Part shown: positions 35,480 to 63,757 of the stretch, piece after piece
How positions within the stretch are numbered: position 1 is the stretch's first letter
How the letters are laid out: the number at the start of each line of letters is the position of its first letter
Source of the DNA: Mytilus galloprovincialis
Lineage: Eukaryota; Mollusca; Bivalvia; Mytilida; Mytilidae
DNA length: 64,000 nt
NCBI RefSeq assembly: GCF_965363235.1
Contig: NC_134845.1
Location: 69,903,261-69,967,260, forward strand
Reading direction: 5' to 3'
Translations under genes and position numbers: made by a program
The notes under the pieces: generated by a model
Seen by the model: the letters and a program-made list of their open reading frames with translations, nothing else
The model's database searches: none
What the model was told of the DNA's origin: nothing

Positions 35480-35650
35480 TAATGCAATGTGAAACAAGTC
35501 AACGAGAAAACTTCAATTTTGTTCATGTTTGGCTTTATAACTATTTGATCTGCGCGTCACTGATGAGTATTATGTGGACAATACGCGCGTTTGGCGTATT
35601 AAATCATAATCCACTTACCTTTGATAACTACTTACGATCAAATACATCAC
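35480..35650 (+). mobile_element. Hammerhead-bearing repeat R2, decayed copy
   Basis: CTGATGAG is kept (35,560-35,567), but the GAAA core and GUC cleavage triplet are changed. The tail TAAATCATAATCCACTTACC and ACCTTTGATAACTA identify the family. Upstream, 35,340-35,480 looks like a weak R1-type fragment. 35,700-36,700 shows no gene. Confidence 0.6.
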
Positions 35651-37639
35651 AATACAATAAAAAAAAAAAAATATGAAAGACATGAAGCGACAGCAACGAG
35701 TGAATTGCAGACTCTTGACTTAAGCACGGTAGAAATCCCGGTACAGTACGAATGTAGAAGGGTAAAACATGTTTGTGAGCTCTGAACCTTTCTTATCTAA
35801 ACCAGTGGTCCAACAAGCATTAGAACTAAATTAATTTATTGGTAAGGCGCACACACAAAAACGAATACAAGCCAGTATTTACAAAGTAGCGACGTAAGAG
35901 TACTCACAGCTACTGAATCTTGTTTAAATAAAAATCCAATTATAAATTTGATGAGTTCATACTATAAGCTGTGTGATTGGCTATTATTTTATTTAATCAA
36001 AATTTTTAAAATTGCATAATGTTTTCCGATGAGACTTTAAAAAATTAAAACACAAAATTACACGAATACCTATATTTCTTTGGAATGTTAAATAAATCAA
36101 CTTTTCAGCCTTTTAGAAATCAATTTGTTGTTCTACTGAAAATCGATAAAGGTCCAGGTACTGTTTCATGCCATATAACTCATACGATAAATCTCCGTAA
36201 ATTGTTAATGTAAATAACAGTGTTAATAAGTTTTATAAATATAACATTTTTGTATTAATGTATTAAAACTTGTCATTCATATTAATTAAAAAAAAAACAA
36301 TGTTTGGTCCATTTATTTTTTTCACTATTTTTCTTGATTAATATTTTTTCCATAGCCGTTGCACTCAATATTGTGAATCTGAGAAAGAAAAACAATGGGG
36401 TAATTGTTTTTTAATTGAGTAAATGCTTTTTTTAAATTGGAAATTTATAATCTTTTTTCAATTTATATACTACTGTTAAGAATGGCATAATAAAAAATCA
36501 TGTAGGTACCACGTTCTGACTACGGAGCTGATGTAAACCATCAAATGTATCTGCAAACTACAAAATAGAAATAAAACTTTATAACTGTTCTAGGTAGAGT
36601 GGAAATTTATTCTGCACACAGTAATGGCCACTCTTTATACATGTTTTAATATCTATTTCATTTTTTTAACAATAAAACTTATGCTATTTTATATATATAA
36701 AAAAAAATGTTTTACTTTCTGTTTGTGATCTGAATCCTATGGTTATGTGTTACATAAATAATCTTATTGCACGTTCGCCTTTTGATTGTTATTCTCTACA
36801 TGTGTCATTTAGACTGAAGTTGTACTGCTCTTCAAATGGATTTTATTGATATTCAATATATTTAATAGTACCAACAATAGCGATACATTATTTGGAAATG
36901 GGCATCTTGTGATGCAATATAGTTATAATCATTGGCTATTTTATTCTGAAGATGTTGTATCAATATTATATTATAATATAGACACAATTTATTCAGATAA
37001 TCAATTATACGATCAATGTTTTACATGTATCTCCGTTAAAGTTTGATTCGTATCCATTGCAAACTCCATTAAATTAGTTTATCATATCGGAATTTAGATA
37101 AAAACTATGTTGTATATTACAACAATAACAGCAATTTTTGCACTTTTTATGCATTTCATAGCAAATTTTGCTTTGCAATCACAAACATTTAACAAACAAA
37201 CAGACACGCGTATAGTTTCAAGTGGAGCATCAATGGTGACAACAAAAGTGGAATTTGGATTCGAATGTGCTATCATGTGTACAAATGACAATAGCTGTTG
37301 TTCCAGTAGCTTCGACAAATACTTAAAACAATGTCAGCTTTCATGTTTATGCAATCCTACAGTGGAACACCATAACGGATCATTTTCATTTATAAAGACT
37401 CTGAAATCAGGTATAGATTTGACAAATATTTTCAATTTAAGTTAGTACGTTTACAATAGTTATTAAAGGTACGAGGATTATAATTTAGTACTGCACTATA
37501 AGTTTGTAAAATTAAATTGGATTCAACATTAATTTTCATTTTGACGTGCAAACAAACTGGATTGTATTTTATCACTGTACGATGTCTGAGGCTAGAAATA
37601 CAACCTAACAGGCATAAGATAATGCAAATTTGCAAATCT

Positions 37640-39900: not shown

Positions 39901-40559
39901 CGTGCTTGTCACAAAAAAGCTATTTTACGACGCCATCACGAGCTAGTTGGTTGACTGTTATGAAATGACCGTTTCACAAATGATATCGGATATGTTCCTT
40001 ACGTCGTAACTACAACCCCCTTCCCGTTCATGAATGTTACCTACCGAATTAGACTATTTACCGGATTTGTTATCTCATAAACAACACGACGGGTGCCAAA
40101 TGTAGAGCAGGATCTGCTTACCCTTTCGGAGCACCTGAGATCACCCCTAGTTTTTTGGTGGGGTTCGTGTTGTTTATTCTTTGGTTTTCTGTGTTGTGTC
40201 GTGTGTGCCTTTGTTTGTTTGTCTTTTTTCATTTTTTGACCATGGCGTTGTCAGTCTGTTTTAGAGTTATGAGTTTGACTGTCCCTTTGGTATCATTTGT
40301 CCGTCTTTTATATATAGTGAAACCTGTAAAATAGATTTGCGACTGTAAATGGTACCTGTAATGTACTACTAGACATTTAAGACTAGTTTTTGTGAAACAA
40401 ACCTTAATCATTGTTGGATTGTGTTGGATTTTGTCGGTTTTATGAAATGTTACTGGCTGTTTTCTGTTGTACTTCAGTTTTATCATGTATATCTTTTATA
40501 TAGTCATTTTATAAAATTTACTGTTTGCAAAAGTATTAATTATTCTAAATAACAGGGAT

Positions 40560-40745
40560 GTTCTGGTACAGAAAACCCTGGCCGTTTTTGGCACAACTTT
40601 TGCGAACGTTTGGTCCTCGATGCTGTTCAACTTTTGAACTTTTGTATCTGGGCGTCACTAGTAAGTCTTTCTTGTGTGGACAAAACGCACTTCTTGCGTA
40701 TTAAATTTTAAACCTTGGTGCCTTTTGTTAGCTATTATTCGTGTG
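40560..40745 (+). mobile_element. Hammerhead-bearing repeat R2, decayed copy
   Basis: TTTGGCACAACTTTTGCGAA, GGTCCTCGATGCTGTTCAAC and GGGCGTCACTAGTAAGTCTT identify the family, ending near CCTTGGTGCCTTTTGTTAG. Core bases are mutated. It lies between exons 1 and 3 of the FREP paralogue. Confidence 0.6.
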
Positions 40746-44789: not shown

Positions 44790-45127
44790 GACATTTATGT
44801 TACTACGTCTTGGCGAGGGTATCACCAGCCCAGTAGTCAACACTTCGGTGTTGACATGAATATCAATAATGTGGTCATTTTTATAAATTTCCTGTTTACA
44901 AAAATTTGAATTTTTCGAAAAATTAAGGATTTTCTTATCCCAGGCATAGATTACCTCAGCCGTATTTGGCACAACTTTTTGAAATTTTGGATCCTCAATG
45001 CTCTTCAACTTTGCACTTGTTTGGCTTTATAAATATTTTGATATGAGCGTCACTGATGAGTCTTATGTAGACGAAACGCGCGTCTGGCGTACTAAATTAT
45101 AATCCTGGTACCTTTGATAACTATTTG
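44790..45127 (+). mobile_element. Near full-length R2 unit with hammerhead ribozyme
   Basis: The unit runs from GAGGGTATCACCAGCCCAG through ATCCCAGGCATAGATTACCT, TTTGGCACAACTTTTT, CTCAATGCTCTTCAAC and TTTGGCTTTATAAATA to the ribozyme, then ends ATAATCCTGGTACCTTTGAT. The overlapping minus-strand ORF (44,775-45,008) is also partly open in the 48.5 kb copy, but its coding status is doubtful. Confidence 0.7.
45047..45090 (+). ncRNA. Type I hammerhead ribozyme (complete core)
   Basis: Core CTGATGAG (45,053-45,060), GAAA, and cleavage triplet GTC (45,082-45,084) are all present. Stem I pairs GCGTCA with TGGCGT. Stem II is GTC/GAC around TTATGTA. Stem III is a very short self-complementary CGCGCG. 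Such minimal stem III hammerheads are known from animal repeats and generally cleave best as dimers. Cleavage would follow position 45,084. The only inference is activity. Confidence 0.75.
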
Positions 45128-45799
45128 GAATAAATATATGATTTTACTAATCATATTGAGTACCATTGTTATCAATATCGATGACAAAAAAGGAAATTGC
45201 AGAGGAGAAACACTCATTTAGTTTGATAACATATAAAGTCTTTTAAGTGACATTCATATTTCGTTGATAGTAAAAAAAATCAATAATAAGTTTTTGTTAG
45301 ATAATCATGGAACCTTGGAAAAAATGGACTTAACAATGCATCGTTTAGTTAAACAAATATCTTTAATTTCCACTTTTAAACAAAAGCCTGTTCAAATAAT
45401 CATGATGATACTGAAAAGATTCTGAACATATTTTTATGTTTTCTTGGACAAACCCAAGTAAGAAATGACCACATAAAAGGAACATACATAGAACCATATA
45501 AATATTACATGCATGCACGTTCTCGGATACCATATCTCATACTACAATCACATCATTCAGAAATGCATCTAATGGGGTCCTCTTCTTATTTTGAGATTTT
45601 GCTGCTATCCAAGTTCAAATTTTGACTTATTTTATTGGAATAATTTGGCAATCCTTCAAATCTTTTGCTTCTTCTGTAATTCAGTGGTTGTTGTTCGTGC
45701 TGAATTACATATTTGTTTTACTTTCATTTTTTCGTACATTAATTATGCCATTAGTTTTTTTTTTATCTTAATCATGTGTTAATTGATTTAAAGTGGTCA

Positions 45800-46330: not shown

Positions 46331-48399
46331 AAATAGAAAACTAAAAACTGAAAAACACTCCCCCTCCCCCATTCAGAACCGTAGATGATCTATTGTGCTC
46401 AATATTATCCCATACAACGCATGGTATGATATTAATCATTCGTTACAAGAACACATGTATAATATAGTTGAATGTGTAAGTTTTTACGAACATGGTATCG
46501 GTAATCGAGTCAGATGGCATACCTTAATTGGAATATGTAATACCTATATAATATTGATATATCTTTTTTGTTATTCTACCGATCGAGATAAAAATATGAA
46601 GGATTTATATCTTTTGATTGACACATGTAAATTAATGTTTGCCATCAAATCAGGTCCTGTCAAAATTTGTAATTTAATTAATTTTTTTCAAAGGAAGTGC
46701 GTTTGGTTCATTGGTTGGACGTTTTTGTCGATAGAACAACCTTTAATTTGTCGTGTAAAATCTACTCATTTGTCTACATTCGGGTTGATTTCTATAAAGG
46801 ACAGTCACCTGGTAATATTACCGAAACCGTATTAATTAAATTAACTATTATAATGATGTATTATTATGATAAACGATAAAAATGAAAAAAAAAAACCAAA
46901 AAAAAATCGTACATGAAATAGAAACCTGACGTTATAAAAACCAACATACTTCCAGAGATCGCTCAATTACGAATGAGTGTAGGTAATCCAACATATCGAA
47001 CAGCAATAGTTTAAATATCTCAAACACAAACACAACAGGAACAAAATGACAACAAATAAATACATGCTCAATGGTAACATATGAACGTTGTGGATATATT
47101 GGTTTTATGCAAATTTGTCGTAAATAACTGCAAAAAATGATCAACCCTTTACGTTATAAGCAGTGTAGTTAACCAGTTATGTTTTAAACAGTAAATTATG
47201 AAACTGGTCTAACCATGAAAGGATACAAAATACAGTGATCGTAAACACTACTTTTCTTATAGCTTTATCAAAAGTCAATCTAGCTTCAAAGAAAGATTTT
47301 AAATCAAAGTTTCTAATTTGTTTCCATTTTATATCTTATCACTGTTAACGAATCAGGTTGTGATTTAACTTCAATATTACATCACTGTTTTCTGATGCAA
47401 ATCAGCAGTGTTTTGACAACTCGTGATCGTGGACCCAAATTGTAAACCTTCTCCACTTATTAAAGTTTAATGTTTTATTATATTTTCGTAGAATGAAGCG
47501 GATTCATTATGGTATACACGAGGTATCCTTGTTTTTAAATAGAAAACTAAAAATGGAGTAACACTCACTAATTAGAAATGGTCTGAACTAGGTTTAGTAA
47601 GAAAATAAGATGTATGGTTTGTCTATATAGTTAAAATACATCTGTTTCGGGAAGTATTTAGGCATTACAAAAATATGGTTTGATATGATTCAATGACGTA
47701 ACGATGTTTCGTTCAACTATTTGAAGAGGAGGTTAATATCCTTATCAAATTGGATCTACGTGAGCTGTACTTACTACATTTAAGTAAATTTAAATTCTAT
47801 GCTCTTAATATAAAGAAATTTGCCGTTCTTCGTCTACTAATTTTTACTTTATTTTTTTATTTATGTATGTATAGTTCATAGTTTAACTTTTCGATATAGC
47901 AAAGCTTCACATTGTATGTATATGTTGTTTTGATGTATAAAAACATGTTTAAATGTATTTTTTTATAAGAACTGTTGATATTGGTTGTCATATATCATGG
48001 AAGCTGAGGATGGTATGACTCTCACGCAAAATAATAATTATATTCGGAAACATGATGGAAACATATGGGAGCAAGTTTATAGATTTTGATTTTTTCAAAG
48101 TCTTGTATTGATTTTTGCTATAAATCGTTATACAACATTCTATTCATTCAGTAAGATTTGAAGTTGCAATTGCAAATATTGATGACATGAAGGATATCTA
48201 ACATGTCTATAATTAAGCATAAATTGTTTCAATACCTCACCAGGGAATTGCAACAGATAAATTAATCCTCATAAAACAATAAAATAGGAAAGTAATGCTG
48301 TATACTTTAATGTCACTCATTAACAAATACAGGTGTAGATTTTGAAAAAAATTGAAGGAAGACAGATGAATTGATACACACATAAATTTATTTTAAAGG

Positions 48400-48900
48400 T
48401 ACCAGGTTTATAATTTGATACGACAGACGTGTGTTTCGTCTACATAAGACTCATCATTAGCGATCAGAATAAAAGAGTTAGAAAGTCAAACAAACATATA
48501 GGTGAAGAGCATTTTATAACCTAAAATATTAGAACGTTGGGCCATATACGGCTAAGGTAATCTATGCCTGGGATAAGAAAATCCTTATTTATTTGAATAA
48601 TTCATATGTTTACGGACAGTTAATTTATAAAAATGACCATATAATTGATATACAAATTGCAGACTTCTAGGCTGGTGGTACCTTCATGGACAAAACTTCC
48701 ACCAGCAGTGTCATCAACCAAGTTGTGTAAATAGTTAAAAAGTTAAAAAAAAAAAAGGTTCCTGGCTTATAGTCTACATAAGACTCATCAGTTAAGCTCA
48801 GATCAAAAAAGTTAGAAAGCCAAGCAAGAATAAAGTTGAAGAGCATTGAGGACTCAAAATTCCAAAGGTTGTGTCAAATACGGATAAGGTAATCTATATA
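48400..48900 (-). mobile_element. Tandem R2 copies with two hammerhead motifs in direct orientation
   Basis: On the minus strand the order is TTTGACACAACC, TCAATGCTCTTCAAC, first motif AACTGATGAGTCTTATGTAG (its 3' half deleted), unit body (CACTGCTGGTGG, ATCCCAGGCATAGATTACC), CCCAACGTTCTAATATT, then the second motif TGATGAGTCTTATGTAGACG with GAAA and GTC kept but one core base changed, then CAAATTATAAACCTGGTACC. The two motifs lie about 345 bp apart. Confidence 0.65.
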
Positions 48901-49345: not shown

Positions 49346-51059
49346 ATATCCCAAAATCTAAAAGACACTAAGTACTGATTTGAAATTATGCATCTAAGAC
49401 TAAATAATCAATCAGCACACATCCAACATCCAATGGATTTAGTGTAAGAGGACATAAATAGTCTTCGGACATCGTGGACGACAACGATGTGGTACCAATA
49501 TACGACCGTTTTCTTTTTTAGATAAACTATAGGTTGGTGTAAATAAAAGAAAGTTTTATCATATTTTGATGCTTTTTTGTGTCAAATTTACCATGTTGTC
49601 AATTTTGTAAAGGAGTAGGTCCAGTAAGACCTCTTTTCGACCCCAAAATATAGCAGTTTTAGAAATTGTTTTACAAATTGTGAAAATGTAAACTTTAAGT
49701 TATTTATTGGAAAGTAGAATGCTTCGTTACATAAATATGGGCTGTTTTTGGACATTACAATGCACCTATATCGGGTACTAGCATCATTAAGTCATGCTAA
49801 ATTTACTGAAATCTTCACTATTTTAGCATTTTAGTTGAATTTTATGCCTGGAATACGAAATCTTAAGTCATGCAATATTCACGCTTTTCATAACAAACAA
49901 AACATTTGAAAGTATGAACACTGTTTTTATTTTTATGAATTTTCAAAAGATAAAATTCAAATAATTGAAAAATTGCTATATCAAATTATTCATTGATCAA
50001 TTAGGTTAATATTTAATCACTGTTGAAATAAAAATATTTCAAGGATCATAAATCATGACTTGTTATACGACTGCATGACTCAAAAGACATGAGTACTATG
50101 AATTTGATGCAGACCCTTAGTAAGTTAAATGAGGTCTAACTGCATTATTCTTAACACTTTTTTAGACTCATTTGTACAACTTTTTCATTGGAGAATTATT
50201 TAACAATATATTTGCATTTAACCAGACATTAAAAGTTAAATGGAGACACGTTTTCCAAATCTGTTCAATAAAAATCTACATGGCATTGATATTGGACTAT
50301 TCTCATTTTACATTAGCTGTCACGATCAGTTAACAGCGAAGGCAAAATGGGAATACACATTGCTATTGTAATGCATGCAACCAAGAGAAATTTAAATTAA
50401 AATTGATAATCCTTTATAAAAGAGATTGACCAAAGGGGGCTTAAAAACCCTTCTACAAAACACAGTTTTTGTTCATTACAGAATGATATATCTGCCAGGT
50501 CTAGTCTTTATCATCCATAAAACGTGATAATGTGAGTTCTACTGATTCACTGAATGCAAATATGACAAACTTATTGGCATTACAACAATAAAAACTTATA
50601 AACAAAATTTCAAAAGTGGCAGGACTTACAAACAAATCGACCTCGACACCTTAACGAAGATGCCGAAAAAAAAACCCACATAAAACGAAGCAAACTGAAA
50701 TTTTCAATAAATAAATTCATCAAAGATACACGGATTAAATTTTTATTTTTACGCCAGACGTGCGTTTTTCACATGCAAAATGAAATAATACAAAAACGAA
50801 AACAAAATCCTGTAAAATTTAATTATTAAACTGAAATAAAAACAAGCAAATAAAAAGAAAAATGAAAATTTTGACAACATATCATCAGGTAACGAAGGAT
50901 TCTAAAGAACTACCTGCTGAGATTATATCCTGGTAACTAATGCGCACACGTTTATAAATGTTCAAGTCTTGTAAAAATATTAAAGGACAACAAAAATTAT
51001 AAATACTACAATCGGCCTTTTAGAGGTTAACAGATTTACCTAAATTTTAAGATTTCAAT

Positions 51060-51742: not shown

Positions 51743-54700
51743 ATGAAAATGAAGTCTTTTGTTTTAGTGCTCTGTATTTTGTTCTCTGGTGTGTTTTCTA
51801 AAAATGCTTTAAAAAGAAATGAACCTGAGAAAAATCAGAAAAGCAATCCACTGATTTGGCTAATTTTACAACAAAATGAACAATTACATGCATTAAGAGC
51901 TCGTTTGGTTAAGCTCCGAGATATAGCACATGAAAGCCAAAAAGACATGATTTCTCTGAAAAGAGACATGGTGGCTTTAAAATCTAGATTCGGGAATTTT
52001 GCCATTGATAGAAATGATAAATCACTTGATGAAATAAATTCTAAAGTTATTGCAGTCGCCAACAAAAAGAAAATTGACAATTTAACTACACAATTAGAAA
52101 AGTTCCACAACGGCAAATTAGAAAAGCAAATTAAGCAGCAGGTGTTATCACAGATGGAAAGATTCAACAGTTACAAAGGTAACTTAGGTAAGTTGTAAAT
52201 ACTGTTTAATACGAGGGTTTTTCAATACCTTTTACTTGACTATCCATGAAGGTCTTGCTTGGTCGGTTTAACTTACAATCAGCTAATACATGTAATAGAA
52301 CAACTTATTTTATGATTGAAGGCTTTTTGCATGTGTTTGATGTTTATTTTGATAATGAATAAGATTAAAACGCAATGTTGACTGCTGAACTTCTTCTATT
52401 GACATTTTTACCTGTTATGTCTGTTTGTGTTGTTCACATATCGATGTCAGTCTAAGGGAATTTACTGTCATACTTATGAGAGGTTTGGCTAGCTATAAAA
52501 TCAGGTTTAATCCACCATTTCTACACAAGGAAATGTCTGTACCAAGTCCGGAATATGCGTTTTTTATATTTATTTGAATTGTTTGAGATTTTAATTTTGA
52601 CATTTAATTAGGGACTTTCTGTTTTGAATTTTCCTAAGAGTTCAGTATTGTTGTGATTTAGCTTTATGACAGGAAGCTTAACTTTTACAAGTTTAGTTGA
52701 TAAGTCGTCTCAGTTTTGCAAAATTTTAAACATTTCAAAATTGATATGGTAGATCTAATTTAATCATTAGATATTTACTTTCTGATAACAGTTTTAATTA
52801 ACCCATCTCGACTTAGCTTTCACTTCTGACATCCCGATGAACAGTCAATGGAAACAAAGTACTTACAATGTTATATGTCATAGTAATAATAAATACCTAT
52901 CAATATCATATGTCTACCCTACCATATTTGCATTTAATATATGATAAATATTTGATTAATTTCAATGTATCTAACTTATTCATAACCACTATAATTTGTT
53001 TACTTACAAAAAAAACCCAAAAACCCACTTAAAATAAATCAACCAGGTAGCATTGGTTGTTTTTTTATTAATTGGGATCGTTCGCTTTATAATTCAGAGT
53101 AACTTGTCATTTGGTGTGTGTTTGCAATTTTGCACGGTTCTTTTCAGGTTGAAAAAAGGTTAAATGTTTTAACTATAGAATCAACATTCTGTTTGTTTTC
53201 TCGTTAGAAATGTTTCACGTTGTGTTATTCTTTGCCTTTTAAATCTTATTATATGAATTGTTTTGCTCAATGTTGATTGCCATTTTGTCATTTGCTGCTT
53301 GGTGTTTGTTGTCTTTCTTGCAGTAGTGCCACATCTCCATATATTTATTTTAAGTAATCCTTGGCCTTTTTAACTTTTTTGGATTCGAGAGTCACTGATG
53401 AGTCTTTTGTAGACGAAACGCGCGTCTGGCGTATATACTAAATTTAGTCCTAGTATCTATGATGAGTTTATTTACAGGTGGAGGAGATACATATGTTCGG
53501 TGGGGGAGAACAACCTGTCCAGCGAAAAATGGCACTACACTTGTGTATGCTGGTAAGTACGCATATTTCAGTCGTCGTACAATATTGATAATGATCATAA
53601 AAATGTCAGTGCGTCACTACGTGTAGATTTTGTTGAAATCACATAAATACTAAATGTTTTTCTAACAGAAGAAAATTTCCTTGAAAGTTGTTCGTGGGCA
53701 ATAATTTTCATTTAATTTTTTTTTTTTTTTAGTGTCTTTGTGCAAATCGCATTACATAATCAATTACATTATATATTGACAATTCAGTTTGAAACTCAAC
53801 ATATAGGCACATCGAAATAACCAAAAGGAAATCGAAAACAATCGATTATCAATCTGTTCTATGTTCTTTCTAAATTTAAAACCAATGATGAAGAATGTAA
53901 TGATGTGGAAAACAAACTTCTGTAGAATTTATTTTATGTTTAAATGTTTGTCACATTTGTTATAGTATCACTTTAAGGAACTGTCAATTTTATTTGTATG
54001 ATTTTGCTCATGAATCATGTGATACAGTATTTGTAAAATACATGTTTTTTTTCCATTTTCAACATAGGATATGTAATATCATTGTAAATGGAACTTGCCA
54101 TCTTTTGTCTATAGTTAGCTGTTATTATGATGCCAGTCTTTACTTGTTGATAGTTGTCCCTTTCGCCATCATACCTCATCTCCTTACTTTTATAATGGTA
54201 GGGTTTATGAAAGTCAGACAGGATTTATCTTAAAAGTCAGCTTAAACCAGTCGCGATTTATTGTTTTGCTAAGTAAAGGCAACAGTACTATACCGCTGTT
54301 TGAAAGTCATAAATTGATTGAGAAAAAAACAAACAAATCCGAGTTACAAACTAAAACCGAGAGAAACACATCAACTATAACATGTATAAGAGGGGGGAAA
54401 TTTGGAACAAATAATTGCATAATATATTAAGTGATATGTGTACATTTTTTAAATGTATATAATGAATACCTTATAATCGACAAATATTTCATTCAATTAT
54501 GAGTGAACGTAAGTTTTTGCTGCTTATTAATTTTTTGTGGTTTTGTTGCCGAAGTTTACCGATCATGATAAAAAGTCGACACAGAATCAGGCATGTCAAA
54601 CAAGAGAGATAATTGAGCACTTTGTATTTGCTTTTTAGACAGTTCTACCCTAGAACTGATCCTGACAGTTCTACCTAAAACTGATTTAGCCAGTTCTAGC

Positions 54701-62254: not shown

Positions 62255-62410
62255 AATGCGTATTGGCACAACTTTTGGGGATTATTTGGTTCTCAATGCT
62301 TTTTAACTTCATTGTTGGTTGGCTTTCTAACTATTTTGATCTGCGTGTCTCATGTAGACGAAACGAGCGTCTGGCGTATAAAATTATAAGACTGGTACTT
62401 TTGATAAATA
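62255..62410 (+). mobile_element. Hammerhead-bearing repeat R2, decayed copy
   Basis: ATTGGCACAACTTTTGGGGA, CTCAATGCTTTTTAACTTC, then TAGACGAAACGAGCGTCTGG and GACTGGTACTTTTGATAAAT. The CTGATGAG half of the core is deleted. Confidence 0.65.
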
Positions 62411-62934
62411 TTTATAACAGTTTAAAATAACACGTTAATTTAAACAATTATATCAAGTTATACATGTTATAAATATGATTAGTTTTTTTGGCAAATGTCA
62501 CATACTGTAGCAGCATACGACACCCTGAAAAGTAATCTCTTTCAAAGAGAGGGGTAAATGCATGTATTTAAGCATCTTTATTCACCTAGAATTCTCTTGT
62601 AATCATCTGGTATGACTTTAAACCGGTTTTTTTTAATTTGAGTTTCTACAGTCAACTTAAAGGTGATTTGATGAGTTAGCTAGAAGAGTCTAAGTACTAT
62701 ACTTTTCTTTAAAAAAGATCACAGTCTTTATCCGTGTTCTCATTTGCCTAAACTCATTGTTGAAAAGAAGAAATATTCAATTCGACCAAAAGGAAGCATG
62801 AATATAGCTTCTATCAACCAGGCTTTTTCTTACAAAAATTGAAACTTCAAACATGCTTAGTACTTTTTTCTGATGTCCGTGCCTATATCAATTATATAGG
62901 CTTATCTTGGTGATATTTCGTTTGTTATTGATAA

Positions 62935-63603: not shown

Positions 63604-63757
63604 TATGAAATGTTGGGTCCTCAATGCTCTTCAACTTTGTACTTGTTTGGCTTTATAACTATTGTGATCAGAGCTTCACTGGTGAGTCTTATGTAGACGA
63701 AACGCGCTTCTGGCGTACTAAATTATAATCCTAGTACCTTTGATAACTTTTATATGG
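63604..63757 (+). mobile_element. Short R2 element with hammerhead motif and 10-bp target duplication
   Basis: It is flanked by AATTATATGT on both sides (63,594-63,603 and 63,758-63,767), and it splits a repeat that is continuous at 19,100-19,330. The insert is about 154 bp: CTCAATGCTCTTCAACTTTG, TTGGCTTTATAACTATTGTG, a hammerhead with two core changes (CTGGTGAG; TTC for GTC), and a tail ATAATCCTAGTACCTTTGAT. Confidence 0.75.

Follow-up and report, generated by a model that had tools for sequence, protein, structure and literature searches.

The window, that is, the whole stretch of 64,000 nucleotides of Mytilus galloprovincialis DNA that was analysed, carries a type I hammerhead motif at 45047-45090 on the forward strand. 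The motif lies within a metazoan retrozyme copy that is truncated and belongs to a non-autonomous, non-LTR kind of element, published and studied in M. galloprovincialis (Cervera and de la Pena 2020, PMC7229834). The features of this copy, followed by the other copies in the window, are:

44810..44813 (+): TTGG, left side of a candidate 4-bp target duplication (read directly; the class is enriched)
44814..45126 (+): 5'-truncated A-type retrozyme copy of 313 bp, less than one unit, holding the hammerhead (sequence match)
44836..44855 (+): UUCG-capped hairpin P4 of a conserved domain (P4 covariation)
45047..45090 (+): type I hammerhead ribozyme (Rfam RF00163, 33.0 bits, E 4e-6; 70.9 bits with model R1, of which it is a building sequence)
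45116..45126 (+): common 3' end of the family (..GATAACTA/TT), 39-42 nt beyond the cut, where reverse transcription putatively starts
45125..45128 (+): TTGG, right side of the candidate target duplication (read directly)
35511..35631 (+): truncated A-type copy (47.7 bits)
37456..37495 (-): 40-nt remnant of an A-type 3' tail (15.6 bits, weak)
40471..40734 (+): diverged A-type copy (108.6 bits)
48393..48897 (-): decayed A-type copy in two pieces with damaged hammerheads (35.1 and 20.5 bits)
50713..50767 (-): short T-type copy (23.5 bits)
53358..53470 (+): T-type copy with a second hammerhead at 53389-53432 (68.3 bits; also an R1 building sequence)
62259..62411 (+): truncated A-type copy (93.0 bits)
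63605..63748 (+): A-type copy with a mutated hammerhead (52.8 bits)

Together, nine retrozyme insertions occupy 1,707 bp of the 64-kb window. Aligned with a tandem unit at C1:73 kb, the copy at 44814..45126 was 93.6% identical across 314 columns; it scored 373 bits with nhmmer. The GC content was 0.382 in one A unit and 0.355 in the window copy, below 50% in both. The longest stop-free run in a doubled A unit was 47 amino acids in sense and 94 in antisense, indicating that the unit holds no protein gene.

The initial annotation had described a complete type I hammerhead, and direct reading found the invariant bases that it named and all of its stems in place. Stem I pairs 45047-45052 with 45085-45090 (6 bp, including two G-U pairs), stem II pairs 45060-45062 with 45070-45072, and stem III is the self-complementary ACGCGCGU at 45076-45083; the predicted self-cleavage site is 45084/45085. 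The covariance-model search that had been proposed as a check gave a full-length match to Rfam Hammerhead_1 (RF00163) with 33.0 bits and an E value of 4e-6 in a 1.1-kb search. This score is 1 bit below the gathering score of 34, and a gathering-threshold Rfam scan of the whole window therefore listed no family. The hammerhead core pattern occurred twice in the window, the second time at 53395, against 0.02 occurrences expected from shuffles.

For comparison among copies, we built a covariance model (R1) from three sequences, one each of the A, T and B types described below. R1 gave 137 matches at E ≤0.5 in 79 sources (330,237 bases), with one weak match appearing twice because L032 and L033 overlap. 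In the alignment of 77 distinct rows, which was fitted to R1 and for whose related sequences the shuffle figures are not probabilities, 92.3% of the stem cells paired (90.8% in shuffles), and 14 cells were changed on both sides, against a shuffle mean of 3.4 and with none of 500 shuffles reaching 14. The covariation score of 0.118 exceeded that of all 500 shuffles. Two measures were weaker: the pair-type count was reached by 12 of 500 shuffles, and the five pairs in which a double change occurred (2.5 in shuffles) were equalled in 27 of 500, the number rising to 7 when the alignment was slid by -1.

Cleavage only as a dimer, as the initial annotation had suggested for this motif, was borne out in part. 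The 44-mer alone folded no better than shuffles (z 0.85), and its monomer hammerhead fold had a nearest-neighbour energy of -3.4 kcal/mol against -9.2 kcal/mol for the minimum free energy structure. With two 44-mer strands, the minimum free energy structure was the double hammerhead, at -29.5 kcal/mol, which favours the dimer. Against an exclusive need for it, a cloned M. galloprovincialis repeat is described as self-cleaving during transcription at ~0.1 per min, more slowly than a coral clone, and the abstract of the same paper states that most invertebrate motifs cleave efficiently and ascribes the dimer need to vertebrate motifs, the paper itself to amphibian ones (PMC7229834). The window copy has a single hammerhead, and so it could probably not yield a unit-length circle alone. 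The motif in this 5'-truncated copy is more likely than not a relic with no present role; its sequence is the commonest hammerhead form in our sample, which speaks against a relic, though it shows youth rather than use.

The repeat is abundant. An exact 32-nt core gave 12,678 matches in the genome (1.385 Gb, 331 contigs), and the reversed control gave none. Two subfamilies share this core: A, with units of ~356 nt (..TCTTATG..), and T, with units of ~368 nt (..TCTTTTG..). The units of a third subfamily, B, are 350 nt long; B has 3,378 exact cores, and in its hammerhead all three stems (I, II and III) carry paired changes relative to A and T. The family forms tandem arrays of short units, within 150-450 bp, while the window copy itself is shorter than one unit. 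The exact A/T core was absent from a viral contig collection, from which records of this genome may have been left out. In open-licence literature text, three element sequence strings that we tried were not found in print.

We sampled the first 100 listed core places, which we grouped into 80 arrays, and took 60 of these with ~2 kb on each side; the sample comes from one contig, is biased to copies with an intact core, and includes two overlapping locus pairs (L032/L033 and L039/L040). Using three joined units as the query, so that no end was imposed, we delimited 94 copies in the 60 loci, one of them a 35-nt edge fragment at a place already counted in an overlapping locus. Of these copies, 73 ended near one internal point past the cleavage site, and their starts were scattered. 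Among 62 A-type copies, 42 had their 3' end at unit positions 36-47 (41 of 61 once the doubly counted place is dropped) and the other 20 ended elsewhere; among 32 T-type copies, 31 had it at positions 34-55, 29 of them in one 12-nt window. By comparison, the best 12-nt window for 5' ends held at most 7 of 42 (A) and 5 of 31 (T), and the 5' ends occupied 38 distinct positions in 42 A copies and 29 in 31 T copies. The 5' ends were non-uniform (Rayleigh z 4.59 and 4.51), partly because the sampled arrays were required to hold the core. Copies shorter than one unit made up 23 of 42 in the A type (22 of 41 without the double count) and 24 of 31 in the T type. Searching 310,419 bases with a profile yielded 103 insertions that lay clear of stretch edges, and 82 of them ended no more than 15 nt from the 3' end of the model; the profile model ends at the shared point by construction, and the three-unit query is therefore the fair test of ends.

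Short target duplications accompanied the shared 3' end. In an offset-resolved test on the 62 of 71 loci with a recognised end motif (..(GA)TAACTA or ..(GAT)GAGTTTA), with mispaired loci giving the expectation, duplications starting right at the 3' end were found for 4-mers in 21 of 62 loci (6.0 expected), for 5-mers in 11 (1.9 expected) and for 6-mers in 5 (0.3 expected); four lengths and eight offsets were tried, and three sites had already been inspected by eye when the test was made. Two wide tests gave weak signals, with 23 of 71 loci scoring ≥7 against 103 of 568 controls, and 13 of 71 with ≥6 against 348 of 4954. Many loci had no duplication, and the published retrozyme criterion is a duplication longer than 4 bp when present. 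By eye, the window copy is flanked by TTGG on both sides, the B array at C1:433,306-448,387 has ATTA at both ends, and TTAT is apparently repeated in L026 when compared with related host copies. An occupied/empty pair was also read by eye: a B copy in L084 breaks a stretch that is intact in L071 and L075, with ATAT repeated. In the copies counted for the second of the wide tests, the first and second bases after the junction were T in 89% and 81% of A-type copies and in 93% and 70% of T-type copies; these bases could come from the element or from the target. Similar 3' flanks were seen in nine pairs among the 71, one of which (L014 and L051) starts near the junction. The placement of the hammerhead inside a mobile animal repeat, a kind already published for mussel (PMC7229834), is thus supported, and the mobility of the family, first put forward as an inference, now has genomic evidence in the common 3' end, the short target duplications and the occupied/empty site pair.

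Directly downstream of the putative start point lies a 92-nt domain that is kept in all three subfamilies. We proposed four helices (P1-P4) and tested them on 33 of 55 copies, which we chose to cover the subfamilies. The helices paired in 93.5% of cells (89.2% in shuffles), with 38 double-change cells against 8.4 in shuffles, and none of 500 shuffles reached either value. Seven pairs had a double change, a number reached by 3 of 500 shuffles, and the pair types were less clearly raised (36 of 500 shuffles reached them). The covariation score was 0.179 against at most 0.070 when the alignment was slid, a control that somewhat favours helices proposed by eye from the same sequences. P1 had no double changes. 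RNAalifold backed P1 and P4 and preferred another inner helix over P2 and P3; this alternative helix together with P2 would be a pseudoknot. The domain may be bound by the reverse transcriptase, since its place resembles that of the protein-binding stretch in the RNA of the PAc enzyme. In the window copy, truncation has removed P3 entirely, as well as the 5' strand of P1 and that of P2.

Which RNA is copied can be judged from the copy boundaries. Genome-wide, a boundary exactly at the cut was found 26 times against 5,327 read-throughs, and at a control point 8 nt upstream 17 times against 5,834 read-throughs. Corrected for base composition by our own arithmetic, the rates were ~1.1% at the cut and ~0.8% at the control, with no clear excess; the template was therefore mostly joined across the cut, as a circle or an uncut multimer. 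We rejected linear RNA left by self-cleavage as the usual template, because copies start at the cut without clear excess over the control. L021, L022 and L039 start at the cut or within 4 nt of it, and these starts would then be chance or minor events. Read-through of the cut is not proof of a circle, because in the published in vitro system of a Penelope-like element insertion persists when the hammerhead is mutated, and the template is mainly unprocessed RNA (PMC11167929). In mussel, circles are described as the main RNA form, with the linear form at <5% up to 25% (PMC7229834).

Units of one array had about ten times more derived changes in common than units of different arrays. For the A type, 2.14 derived changes per 100 positions were in common within arrays (28 pairs) against 0.22 between arrays (954 pairs), and for the T type 3.36 (7 pairs) against 0.25 (224 pairs); none of 2000 permutations reached the within-array excess in either type. 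This argues for one template per array, or for later homogenisation. L029, L033, L042 and L053 were exceptions with few common derived changes. Overall identity within arrays (mean 0.948) was not above that of the best match elsewhere (0.953) and was higher within in 7 of 19 arrays. The B array at C1:433,306-448,387 (ends L010 and L088, inner part L087) contains 44 exact cores at an exact 350-nt spacing, and all 10 inner units sampled were identical; many laps of one circle, a recent expansion or an assembly error could each account for it.

To consider which enzyme does the copying, we surveyed Penelope-like elements through their GIY-YIG domain, the survey being confined to these elements. 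The describing paper leaves the enzyme open and names LINEs or Penelope-like elements, the latter as a strong candidate (PMC7229834), and a review names Penelope-like elements or Terminons as its source (PMC7761336). Frangieh et al. (2024, PMC11167929) report that reverse transcription by a Penelope-like enzyme begins within the RNA, beyond the hammerhead, with a preference for ATT in AT-rich DNA; internal initiation at an RNA site without homology to the cut DNA is presented there as unique to Penelope-like elements. Our genome search gave at least 147 GIY-YIG matches (150 of 1001 candidates were scored), some of them in open frames of 699-911 aa. From the sequences downstream of the matches we defined three hammerhead end motifs; 14 of the 18 stretches carried at least one of these, in some cases with an altered core, and (TA)n lay within 650 nt in 15 of 18. 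One Penelope-like family (L073, L074, L081 and L083) ends at two points ~90 nt apart, both of which recur inside the 5' pLTR of the long copy L090, like the published two-start pattern (PMC11167929). In the L090 family, five of five copies compared cease to match at (TA)n; among retrozyme junctions, 1 of 71 does so. This family is therefore an unlikely donor as it stands. A tail shared by retrozymes and Penelope-like elements was not found in 18 downstream and 2 upstream stretches. Retrozyme pieces were present within L075 and L084, with weak matches in L073 and L081. Penelope-type mechanics fit retrozyme insertion, and for a specific partner they point to a candidate class only.

Two further observations were made near the GIY-YIG matches. 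Downstream of them, L069-L072, L075, L080, L084 and L086 carry hammerhead-like motifs whose stem III is a very short palindrome (AGCGCT); the motif in L072 looks complete, and the core is changed in L071, L075 and L084. A ~440-nt repeat with a tRNA-like stretch (GGTTCGAATCCCGGCGAG) stands beside Penelope-like copies in either orientation (L075 ~546-700 and 987-1140; L083, L085 and L086).

The best explanation of these data, to which we give a probability of about 0.6, is internally started, target-primed copying by a Penelope-like enzyme of an RNA joined across the cut, perhaps a circle. Tandem loci would be transcribed, the hammerheads would cut the RNA to ~356-nt units, and a host ligase would circularise them, as published for M. 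galloprovincialis and presumed here. AT-rich target DNA would be opened by a reverse transcriptase, most likely Penelope-like, whose copying would begin at one set position inside the RNA, ~40-50 nt beyond the cleavage site. This position lies immediately upstream of the conserved structured domain, which the enzyme may bind. Copying would then proceed upstream across the joined cleavage site and halt at different places, in some cases beyond a first full lap. A fixed start with varied stops would account for the constant 3' end, the scattered 5' ends, the fractional arrays and the short duplications. We infer the circle as the template, the writing of arrays by laps and the Penelope-like nature of the enzyme. 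The full form of this model is a rolling-circle, target-primed insertion: the conserved and possibly pseudoknotted domain on the circle would be recognised by a Penelope-type enzyme, which would start at the fixed point upstream of this domain and write arrays into AT-rich DNA in one or many laps. It is a tentative proposal that we hold at less than even odds.

The same internal start could instead act on uncut linear multimers transcribed from genomic arrays. Read-through of the cut fits such a template equally well, and unprocessed RNA is the main template, with hammerhead mutants inserting, in the published Penelope-like system (PMC11167929). Many copies are shorter than one unit, though, and read-through transcripts of these should carry upstream host sequence. 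No such copied host DNA was seen: the 71 5' flanks included two similar pairs, one within the palindrome of L038 and the other off the junction, so that no 5' flanks were shared at the junction. This argument is weak if long arrays are the sole sources. Circles being the main mussel RNA form (PMC7229834) also weighs against the linear multimer, which we regard as improbable. Arrays could alternatively have arisen by unequal crossing-over or slippage, as in satellite DNA, after insertion of about one unit or less. The sharing of derived changes within arrays fits this as well, and the B array of 44 evenly spaced cores with identical inner units could equally reflect recent amplification; crossing-over alone, however, leaves the common 3' end and the scattered 5' ends of the sub-unit copies unexplained, and we consider it somewhat unlikely.

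LINEs likewise leave short duplications, truncated 5' ends and a fixed 3' end, so a LINE rather than a Penelope-like element could have done the copying. The (TA)n context of the one Penelope-like family, which differs from that of the retrozymes, points the same way, and LINEs are named alongside Penelope-like elements as candidates (PMC7229834). The description of RNA-internal initiation at a non-homologous site as Penelope-specific (PMC11167929) argues against a LINE, and we judge its involvement unlikely. Copying by a Penelope-like enzyme remains our preferred reading.

The family resembles the published M. galloprovincialis retrozyme in its type I hammerhead, its tandem repeats of ~350-390 bp, its thousands of copies and its low GC content (PMC7229834), and is presumably the same family, a comparison made by description. 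That paper gives ~5000 motifs in two families, against 12,678 exact A/T and 3,378 exact B cores here, in another assembly, and it reports expression of circular retrozyme RNA in M. galloprovincialis. The Penelope-like element PAc of Anolis, as described in PMC11167929, is alike in its fixed internal start past the hammerhead, its AT-rich targets and its tandem or partial-tandem copies. It differs in that its start lies 85-92 nt past the cut in that paper's coordinates, against ~40-50 nt for the retrozyme, and cleavage is unnecessary for its insertion (PMC11167929). A Penelope-like element also has a gene for reverse transcriptase and GIY-YIG, whereas the A unit of the retrozyme has no long open frame. 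Plant LTR retrozymes, the subject of PMC4918200, are likewise non-autonomous and make circular RNA with hammerheads; they differ in having type III hammerheads, LTRs, PBS, PPT and a length of ~700 nt (PMC7229834, PMC7761336).

Among the open-licence papers searched, no title or abstract described insertion anatomy or such a domain for retrozymes. The element kind itself is already published; the insertion anatomy in 60 loci and the conserved domain are new here. The enzyme that spreads animal retrozymes and their source RNA were left open in the describing paper (PMC7229834), and the pattern of the copies suggests how retrozymes get written into DNA. With a fixed start, a candidate recognition domain and target duplications at that point, retrozyme spread becomes testable in vitro and by polymorphism.

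Two other arrangements were noted in the sample. In L009, an array of two full and two part retrozyme units (1327-2287) interrupts a decayed Penelope-like reverse-transcriptase gene, which lies on either side of it. Three abutting pairs of opposite-strand retrozyme pieces, resembling inversions or nested insertions, were found in 2 of the 60 loci (L038 1447-2211 and L046 1845-2090).
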